64,000 nt of DNA from Lachnospiraceae bacterium (GTDB lineage Bacteria > Bacillota > Clostridia > Lachnospirales > Lachnospiraceae), in assembly GCA_016288005.1 (NCBI GenBank), contig JAEEXY010000004.1, positions 26,700 to 90,699 of the forward strand, read 5' to 3'. A program made the translations under genes and the position numbers. Under the pieces are notes generated by a model that was given only the letters and a program-made list of their open reading frames with translations, did not search any database and was not told where the DNA came from. Below, one piece after another: positions 44,365 to 46,777 of this stretch. Position 1 is the first letter of the stretch. Each line of letters starts with the position of its first letter.

Positions 44365-44892
44365 ATGCGAATTTCTCTTTCCGGCGTCATGAATCTTAAC
44401 TCCGAAAGCCGTGAGTTCACCGCGGATGTGGAGGCAGAGAGTTTTATGTATATGGGCGAGAGTTATCCCGTGGCCAAAAAGGAGCCCGTGAGGTTCTCAG
44501 CCGTTTCAGACACAGCAAAAACAGTCAGGGTCAAGGCTCAGACAAAACTGGAGCTTTCCGTTCCGTGCGACAGGTGCTTAGAGCCTGTATCGGTACCGTT
44601 TGATATCGATACGGACTATGTGTTTACCTGGGAGGATGACGGTACGGTCAGGATCAGGGATGACGAAGAGCCGGTAAATTACATAGACGGATATGAGCTC
44701 GATGTTGATGCTTTTATCAGCGAAGAGATTATGATAGGGTTTCCCATGAAGGTGCTCTGCACAGAGGACTGCAAAGGTATTTGCAGTGTCTGCGGAGCGA
44801 ATCTCAACAGGGGAGAGTGCGGCTGCGACCGCACCGTGCTTGACCCGAGAATGTCAATTATCCGGGATTTGTTCCGACAGAAGGAGGTGTAA
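44365..44892 (+). CDS. YceD/DUF177 family protein
   Basis: ELSVPCDRCLEPVSVPFD; CTEDCKGICSVCGANLNRGECGC; directly upstream of rpmF. Confidence 0.9.
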   Translation: MRISLSGVMNLNSESREFTADVEAESFMYMGESYPVAKKEPVRFSAVSDTAKTVRVKAQTKLELSVPCDRCLEPVSVPFDIDTDYVFTWEDDGTVRIRDDEEPVNYIDGYELDVDAFISEEIMIGFPMKVLCTEDCKGICSVCGANLNRGECGCDRTVLDPRMSIIRDLFRQKEV

Positions 44893-44897
44893 GAGCA

Positions 44898-45080
44898 ATG
44901 GGTGCTATTTGTCCGAAAAACAGAACTTCTAAAGCCAGAAGAGACAGTCGTCGCGCAAACTGGAAGATGACTGCTCCCAACCTTGTTAAGTGCAGCAAGT
45001 GCGGCGCGCTGATGATGCCTCACAGAGTATGCAAGGCATGCGGCAGCTACAACAAGAAGGAAATCATTCCTCAGGACTAA
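44898..45080 (+). CDS. rpmF: 50S ribosomal protein L32 (zinc-ribbon type)
   Basis: MGAICPKNRTSKARRDSRRANWKM...CSKCGALMMPHRVCKACGSYN. Confidence 0.95.
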   Translation: MGAICPKNRTSKARRDSRRANWKMTAPNLVKCSKCGALMMPHRVCKACGSYNKKEIIPQD

Positions 45081-45096
45081 CAAATGGAATAAAAAT

Positions 45097-45130
45097 GACC
45101 GAGTCATTTATGGCTCGGTCATTTTTTATT
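45097..45130 (+). terminator. Terminator of rpmF
   Basis: aatgaccgag-tcatttatgg-ctcggtcatttttt. Confidence 0.85.
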
Positions 45131-45133
45131 CCA

Positions 45134-45341
45134 CCCCGCCATGCTGCGAACAAGGTGCAAACGCTTCAATGCACCTTGTTCGTGGCGGGGCGGCGAAGCC
45201 GTTTGTGGTCTCGCAGAGGTATTATCGATGCGAGACTACCATCCGGCGGCGAAGCCGTTTGTGCTCTTGCTCCGAAAGCTTGTGCCGGGCTTTGCCCGGG
45301 CACAAGCTTTCGACGCAAGAGTTCCGAATGTAGCGAAGCCG
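45134..45341 (+). repeat. Modular hairpin array: hairpin A, GGCGAAGCC, hairpin B, GGCGAAGCC, hairpin C, AGCGAAGCC
   Basis: Hairpins 45134-45190, 45205-45239 and 45264-45321; CGGCGAAGCCG at 45191-45201 and 45247-45257, AGCGAAGCCG at 45332-45341. Confidence 0.85.
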
Positions 45342-45486
45342 TTAATTATAAAATACGTGTGTTTTTGACCTTCGGCTTGACACAGCCGTAAAAATAAACG
45401 ATACTAAAAGTATAAATGTGGAGAATTTAGTTTACCCCCTACGGTTTCATCGAGCAGGGGGCTGTTTTATCAAGAGGTGCGGTATT

Positions 45487-46527
45487 GTGATTACTCTTAA
45501 AGAGATCGCGCGAATGTGCGGCGTTTCTCCGAGTACGGTTTCGAATATCCTGAACGGTAAGTCGAAAATGTCCGAGGAGACCAGGAATAAGGTTCTCGAA
45601 GCGATCGAAAAGACCGGCTACAGACCCAATTTCTTTGCGCAGGGTATGCGCCGGCAAAACAACAAATTTATATGCATAATCGCCGAGGAACTGCTGCAGT
45701 TCTCGACACCTCCCATCGTTGAGGCTATCATGGATGTCTGTGAAGCCAAAGGCTACAGGACGATCCTCATCAACATGAGCATGTATGAGAAGTGGAAGAA
45801 GACCGGCGTGAATCTCGGTGAGGAAAAGCTGCTGATGAAATACACCTCACCCGCACTGGTCGAAGCAAAGGCCATGAGGGCCGACGGTATTATATATGTC
45901 GCGGCGCACGGTCATGCCGTGGATGTTGTTCCGGACGATTACGGTATACCCGTTGTATTTGCGTACGGACATTCGAGAAACAGCAATTACAGATGCGTTC
46001 TCATCGATGATTTCGGAGGAAGCGTTATGGTGACCCGGCATCTGATATACCGCGGTCATAAGAAGATCGGTGTCATATGCGGCAAAGAAGACAACATGCA
46101 TACGATCGAGCGGTTGAAAGGATACAGATCGGCTCTTTCGGAGTTCGGGATCAAGTACGATAAGGACCTGGTACTGTACGGTGACTGGGAGCGTGAATCC
46201 GGCAGGATATGCGCACGAAAGCTCCTTTCCATGGGTATCACGACCATCTGGTGCATGAACGATCTGATGGCGGCGGGAGCTTACGACGAAGCCATGGCGG
46301 AAGGACTGATCGTCGGAGAGGATATCTCGATATTCGGATTTGACAACAGAGAGATCTCGGAGTATCTGTTCCCTCAGCTCTCTACCTGTGAGCTGCCGCT
46401 CGAGGCGATCGGAAAAACCTGCGCCGAGCAGATCATAAAGGAGATCGAAGACGAGAACTACAGGAGTCAGCCGGCAGAATTGATAAAGATGCCGTGCATG
46501 ATGGTACAGAGAAAATCGGTAATATAA
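45487..46527 (+). CDS. LacI-family transcriptional regulator
   Basis: ITLKEIARMCGVSPSTVSNILNGKSKMSEETRNKVLEAIEKTGYRPN HTH; periplasmic-binding-like domain; GTG start with gaggtgcgg upstream. Confidence 0.92.
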   Translation: MITLKEIARMCGVSPSTVSNILNGKSKMSEETRNKVLEAIEKTGYRPNFFAQGMRRQNNKFICIIAEELLQFSTPPIVEAIMDVCEAKGYRTILINMSMYEKWKKTGVNLGEEKLLMKYTSPALVEAKAMRADGIIYVAAHGHAVDVVPDDYGIPVVFAYGHSRNSNYRCVLIDDFGGSVMVTRHLIYRGHKKIGVICGKEDNMHTIERLKGYRSALSEFGIKYDKDLVLYGDWERESGRICARKLLSMGITTIWCMNDLMAAGAYDEAMAEGLIVGEDISIFGFDNREISEYLFPQLSTCELPLEAIGKTCAEQIIKEIEDENYRSQPAELIKMPCMMVQRKSVI

Positions 46528-46533
46528 ATGTAG

Positions 46534-46630
46534 TCATGCATCGAAAATACCTCTGCATGACCGCGGATGGCTTCGCCTCCTCGCAATAGACAAGATGCAT
46601 TGGAGCATCTGCACCTTGTCTATCGATTGC
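46534..46630 (-). repeat. Inverted-orientation copy of the modular hairpin array (hairpins D and E)
   Basis: Minus strand: acaaggtgcagatgctccaatgcatcttgt - ggcgaagcc - tcatgcagaggtattttcgatgcatga, matching hairpins A and B in order. Confidence 0.8.
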
Positions 46631-46634
46631 AAGG

Positions 46635-46698
46635 TGCGGTTCTATAAACAAAAACAGTATCTGTTACAGCAGATACTGTTTTTGTTTATAGAACCGCA
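46635..46698. terminator. 29-bp perfect hairpin downstream of tRNA-Arg, likely bidirectional terminator
   Basis: tgcggttctataaacaaaaacagtatctg-ttacag-cagatactgtttttgtttatagaaccgca. Confidence 0.7.
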
Positions 46699-46705
46699 TT
46701 CGCTA

Positions 46706-46777
46706 TGCATCCGACGGGATTCGAACCCATGTTACAGCCTTCGGAGGGCTGCGTGATATCCACTTCACTACGGATGC
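46706..46777 (-). tRNA. tRNA-Arg(CCG)
   Basis: Reverse complement gcatccgtagtgaagtggatatcacgcagccctCCGaaggctgtaacatgggttcgaatcccgtcggatgca folds as a cloverleaf. Confidence 0.93.

Follow-up and report, generated by a model that had tools for sequence, protein, structure and literature searches.

What is the array of strong hairpins that lies between rpmF and a LacI-type gene in the genome of a Lachnospiraceae bacterium? The window analyzed here is a stretch of 64,000 nucleotides of this genome. A preliminary description of it reported three hairpins in this intergenic region (A, B and C) with three (G/A)GCGAAGCCGTT linkers (GGCGAAGCC), and all of these are present as described. The folding of the whole region is much stronger than that of dinucleotide shuffles (z -11.8, matched by 0 of 200 shuffles), and the element proper (45078-45245) has a z-score of about -10.9, as DNA and as RNA alike. 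The view that the array is not a normal terminator agrees with a terminator scan of 44850-45550, in which no terminator was detected. A promoter-like site with TTGACA is found at 45377-45405 between the array and the LacI-type gene; such sites are also expected by chance. A role of the hairpins as a leader of this gene was rejected, since this sole promoter-like site lies downstream of the array and since other copies do not have such a neighbour gene.

The array consists of one complete element, named copy 1, and a duplicated, degenerate P4-P5 half, rather than of three equivalent units A, B and C. The full element has the order P1 [P2, P3, P4] P1' P5, a four-way junction free of linker nucleotides that is directly followed by the hairpin P5. 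Copy 1 and its host gene rpmF (ribosomal protein L32, 44898-45080) are on the plus strand. The left edge CTAA (45077-45080) includes the rpmF stop codon TAA (45078-45080). The 5' strand of P1, ACAAA (45080-45084), shares the final base of this codon and pairs in the DNA fold with the 3' strand TTTGT (45202-45206), for which there is also covariation; in the RNA minimum-energy fold P1 of copy 1 is left open. This helix was found by reading the extended copies, where the segment from the gene end to P2 pairs with the nucleotides just before hairpin B. P2 is a long hairpin (45085-45133) at the position of the rpmF terminator, as judged from the DNA and RNA folds and from comparison with the empty site in the related genome G320. 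It had been taken for a separate terminator bounding the array; it is in fact part of the structure, with P3 immediately after its stem. P3 (45134-45190) corresponds to hairpin A, with a 5' bulge TGCTG (45142-45146) and the loop AACGCTTCAA (45160-45169), and is followed by the mini-hairpin P4, CGGC-GAA-GCCG (45191-45201). P5 (45207-45240) corresponds to hairpin B and carries the conserved loop GAGGTATTATCGA (45216-45228) and the right edge GACTACC. Hairpins A and B are constant components of one element, since they are found jointly at other sites as well. The duplicated 3' half opens with a second P4-like mini-hairpin (45247-45257), a repeat of the CGGCGGCGAAGCCGTTTGTG-type unit. In the fold, hairpin C (45264-45321) has a P5-like stem, CTCTTGC/GCAAGAG, and a long hairpin in place of the loop, a replacement comparable to one in locus L130; it looks like a degenerate duplicate of the P4-P5 half. 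A third GCGAAGC mini-hairpin core is located at 45333-45339.

Is the element unique to this site? In the genome of the window (3.3 Mb, 136 contigs), the 300-bp region used as first query also matched the minus strand of the window at another place, as well as a tRNA array that belongs to a different contig. Four copies that share one loop and have compensating stems were found with a hairpin-B pattern, and a fifth after the pattern was relaxed; in 298 other genomes of the family the unrelaxed pattern had no match. With the covariance model R1, built from an alignment of five copies, six strong copies were detected, and a model of P5 detected eight places. The genome has six near-complete and two reduced copies, and tandem and partial copies exist. 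Many copies are near contig ends (L103, L106, L108, L109, L121 and L132), so that these palindromes probably break assemblies and copy numbers are probably lower bounds. The linker RGCGAAGCCGTT was rejected as the defining repeat, since the genome has merely four exact sites, three of them in this array; with up to one mismatch, the window has 6 matches where 1.7 are expected.

Copy 2 is complete and located on the minus strand (46527-46705), from the 3' end of its host gene tRNA-Arg(ccg) (46706-46777, minus strand) to the stop of the LacI-type gene. The covariance-model match covers 46527-46634 with 110 bits, and the 5' part was read directly. Its P5, GGTCATGCAGAGGTATTTTCGATGCATGACTACA, is found at 46529-46562 and its P3, with the loop GATGCTCCAA, at 46579-46634, both on the minus strand. 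The LacI-type gene is hence flanked by two complete copies in opposite orientation (45077-46705). At L106:7300-8121, the spacers between the genes of a tRNA array (Glu, Met, Asp) contain modules of complete, reduced and reversed form.

The structure is supported by covariation. In the five-copy alignment 18 of 32 pairs have double-sided changes; in 24 extended copies (alignment A4) 50 of 52 pairs do, and P1 covaries too. The paired cells of A4 amount to 91.4%, compared with 68.4% in shuffles and 39-44% in slid controls; some of this covariation reflects relatedness among the copies, which the slid controls preserve. The edges of the element are CTAR on the left and GACTWCCTT on the right. Its most conserved part is in P5, N-GA-GG-UNUUN-YC-GA-N, where the tandem GA step is kept around a covarying pair (G-C to A-U); the P5 pattern is GAGGTNTTNYCGANGCNNGACTWCCTT. 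The P5 loop GAGGTNTTNYCGA is conserved across the family and the P3 loop (type RAYGNYTCAA) less strictly, in both cases as seen on one strand, and few other unpaired nucleotides are conserved. The 5' bulge of P3 usually has 4-5 nt. In P4 most loops are GAA or GGA, and its sequence varies by compensatory changes (GGC-GAA-GCC, CAGC-GCGA-GCTG, TGCC-GCTCCAA-GGCA). The GCGAAGC mini-hairpin was initially regarded as the defining module; the P5 and P3 loops are conserved instead. A function of the GAGGU in the P5 loop as a Shine-Dalgarno mimic is weakened by GAAGU..TTGA variants, which preserve pairing within the loop. At two lysC 3' ends of genome G299 (L202 and L203), the P3 loop contains an additional array of hairpins, about 70 nt long (GGTGACAACTTGTTGTCACTAGAAAGCATAC...), which may be a second mobile hairpin nested in the element.

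R1 members occur in 11 of 24 genomes of the genus. Model R3, which represents P5 only, has 46 matches in 11 of the 24 genus genomes, at gene ends where examined, and none in the remaining 13. Model R2, which represents the whole element, found nothing outside the genus in 397 family genomes of 334 genera (333 other genera), and R3 found nothing else in 388 genomes of the class; both of these searches were run with stricter filters and may have passed over weak members. The phage and plasmid collections gave no match. The family is therefore clade-restricted, found in part of one genus only within the genomes sampled. A genome has at most about nine copies. In a genus tree from rpmF and rnpB, data too short for counting gains and losses, the carriers form two groups, with G316 in addition among non-carriers. 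Mean identity is 0.86 for orthologous sites, 0.645 for different sites in one genome and 0.613 for different sites in different genomes; marked similarity within a genome is seen in G319 only (0.72). Because copies in the same genome are hardly more alike than others, there was no recent burst, and the spread is old, with exchange.

In a comparison with Rfam 15, only two tRNAs in the window reach the gathering cut-off, and a loose search gave weak, unrelated matches; no Rfam family describes the element. It had been stated that the array fits no nameable repeat class, which is borne out by a multi-copy family with no credible Rfam match. We are dealing with a real structured repeat family that is apparently undescribed when set against Rfam 15. 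The preliminary description left three options, a structured RNA, a mobile element recognised as single-stranded DNA and a protein-bound DNA array. The structured multi-copy family is established, and its features point both ways, to DNA and to RNA.

The reading that we prefer, with about equal measures of confidence and doubt, is a REP-like, probably formerly mobile palindromic DNA repeat that is transcribed as the 3' end of its host gene. The family itself, its architecture and covariation, its placement and the polymorphism of its sites are demonstrated; past mobility, recognition of a single strand, transcription and the effect of transcription are what we infer. Non-autonomous DNA would have been moved or copied between gene 3' ends. 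The folded single strand with its conserved P3 and P5 loops would be what an enzyme or binding protein recognises, and its arms would be renewed by template switching, hence their almost perfect Watson-Crick pairing. With a left edge that shares bases with a stop codon or abuts the end of a tRNA, the element would become the 3' end of the host transcript, and such a rigid fold, 0-5 nt from the stop codon, would be expected to block exonucleases or slow ribosomes in a REP-like manner.

Matches in 11 of 24 genus genomes with none in the sampled relatives, the covariation and the placement at gene ends argue for this REP-like reading. In protein genes the stop codon ends within about -5 to +3 nt of the P1 start. 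The hosts, most of whose names were read from C-termini and not from a family search, include rpmF, groEL, moeA, purH, khpA, glnA, secG, glgP, lysC, a glycosidase-like ORF, an NlpC/P60-like ORF and others. At tRNA genes (Arg, Leu, Val, Asp, Ser, Trp) P1 starts 0-2 nt from the gene end, and in G000 and G310 the element lies 3' of RNase P RNA (rnpB, recognised by eye). CTAR is present at 14 of 27 left edges, which were chosen by eye, and a CTAG or CTAA at the left edge often overlaps the stop codons of unrelated genes. These edges count in favour of the REP-like reading because CTAG is rare: the 64-kb window has eight when both strands are counted, i.e. four places. In two loci, L112:4859-4962 and L116:2797-2820, a 3' fragment of tRNA-Leu recurs immediately ahead of the element, an arrangement like that of the att site of an integrated island; in L112 the element is flanked by a separate repeat, GGACTTGAAGCCACCTTCGGTGGCCCGCATTT. 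The single copy of G316 also lies 3' of a tRNA-Leu 3' fragment, apparently the distal end of an island that has integrated.

Empty, partial and swapped sites, the tandem and partial copies and the scarcity of wobble pairs are likewise consistent with a formerly mobile DNA repeat. At groEL, glnA and glgP, close relatives have empty sites bearing terminator-like hairpins. At moeA, G310 has P5 alone whereas the genome of the window has P1-P5, so that the difference is the P1-closed unit; at purH, the latter has P1-P2-P5 and G310 the full element. At tRNA-Arg, P1, P4 and P5 are retained between the genome of the window and G320, with P2 and P3 replaced. Such swaps of whole modules occur beside nearly identical orthologous genes. 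Reduced forms at stop codons are L252, without P3, and L250, a single hairpin plus P5. At the groEL 3' ends of G320 and G310 (L181, L182), where the element is absent, there is another hairpin repeat family (GGATCGCGAGAG...GCGATCC, CGTATGAGCAAGAAGC...); half of one such hairpin remains after the element at groEL in the genome of the window. The rpmF product ends with PQD* in this genome and with ..EA* in G320, G311, G314 and G316 (codons read by eye), so the gene end changed in the lineage of the former. G320, whose site is empty, has the P1-forming ACAAATG as well, a finding that speaks against a simple transposon end or insertion. Also against the REP-like reading are the search for a mobilising enzyme, in which no Y1 transposase was found in the own genome, the lack of a recent burst and of a demonstrated target-site duplication, as well as an excess of G-U over A-C outside P3.

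This last point bears on a second explanation, which is possible though somewhat unlikely: a cis-acting RNA element under selection that replaces the ordinary terminator and is co-transcribed with the upstream mRNA or stable RNA. Its fold would control 3'-end processing, stability or termination, and P5 would be the bound part. Nearly all copies are sense-oriented and placed exactly at a gene end. The sense strand is the one with the conserved loops, and P5 keeps its tandem GA with the covarying inner pair. In L110, L116 and L117 terminator-like hairpins are found 3' of the element. Sense placement and one-strand conservation of the loops allow an RNA nature; nevertheless, a few copies are antisense and face the 5' end of a tRNA or of rnpB. 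Moreover, close relatives lack the element at the same genes, 13 of 24 genus genomes do not have it at all, and the host genes are unrelated and without a common function. The fold of the top strand is good whether it is treated as DNA or as RNA. The helices are nearly pure Watson-Crick: 1202 pairs have eight G-T and four A-C internal single mismatches. The tRNAs of the same loci have 58 G-U and no A-C in 699 pairs; as the counting method was not the same for both, the ratio is rough. Counted by alignment column, G-U:A-C is 32:22 (with P3 partly mis-registered), or 22:6 without P3; inside helices it is 8:4. The excess outside P3 leans towards RNA. A DNA nature is favoured by the polymorphic sites, the exchanged modules and the low number of G-U pairs.

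A more far-reaching version of the DNA reading is unlikely. In it, a folded single strand with the four-way junction would be the form that transposes, the enzyme would be other than the known Y1/RAYT type, and the left end CTAR would supply or replace the stop codon of the gene that it joins; such mobile DNA would make up a new class.

Quite improbable is a repeat with no selected function, an old palindrome that decays and is re-corrected, its perfect stems being a by-product of template switching and its placement that of tolerated insertions. Replication with template switching is able to create perfect stems and to restore them (PMC8794818), which fits the module swaps; whole stems are replaced at one site, and reduced, degenerate copies exist. 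Template switching alone is insufficient, however, where the loops and the P5 tandem GA stay constant while the stems change, and tolerance alone fails to explain starts within a few nucleotides of gene ends. Finally, a self-cleaving ribozyme or a trans-acting small RNA freed from the 3' end of the host transcript is hardly credible: the compact linker-free junction, the conserved loops and copies abutting tRNA 3' ends, where processing would release an RNA, are in line with it, but even relaxed thresholds gave no credible Rfam match, some sites can do without P1-P4, and few unpaired nucleotides outside the P5 and P3 loops are conserved.

If the proposed explanation is right, the family offers a compact system in which to study the spread of structured repeats that have no RAYT, their settlement at gene ends, and the way in which palindromic stems change their sequence yet stay perfectly paired. 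It would also give rpmF, groEL, tRNAs and RNase P RNA a common structured 3' end in part of the genus. Such 3' ends could affect the expression of core genes and be mistaken for ordinary terminators.

Among known systems, RNA candidates from Rfam and from microbiome screens (e.g. PMC8040213) have in common with the element a conserved structure supported by covariation. An intrinsic terminator is resembled by P2, which is at the native terminator position and at tRNA-Leu(aag) looks homologous to the terminator. In contrast to terminators, most P2 have no U-tract (L252 is an exception that keeps it), P3 starts at the next base, and five helices covary. That P2 is the native terminator in every copy was therefore rejected; in addition, the copies at lysC and on the 5' side of rnpB have P1-P2 sequence in common. 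Like integron attC sites, the element abuts stop codons, has variable complementary stems and may be used as a folded single strand. Unlike them, its hosts are core chromosomal genes and tRNAs and not cassettes, and no attC-like or R boxes were apparent by inspection of alignments A4 and A5.

The closest comparison is with REPs. For GTAG REPs, RAYTs are the presumed mobilising enzymes (PMC3733652). A Y1 transposase (PF01797) had no match in the own genome, whereas control genomes respond. RAYTs can be lost from genomes. The bottom strand of P5 can start with GTAG, as in these REPs, but this foot is not conserved: CTAC, which is GTAG on the other strand, is present in 11 of 24 distinct P5, and several others have CTTC. 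As GTAG is not conserved and the own genome has no Y1 match, the element should not be filed as a REP. The GTAG REP families, moreover, were reported from phyla that do not include Firmicutes (PMC3733652). REPs of E. coli, too, are found near stop codons, and those no more than 15 nt away influence translation (PMC12306157). Like REP/BIME sequences, the element is palindromic, intergenic, arrayed and often a few nucleotides from stop codons (PMC3733652), and its stems have alternative complementary residues. It differs from REP/RAYT systems in that the full element is a four-way junction plus a hairpin, and in that the loops, not the stems, are what is conserved.
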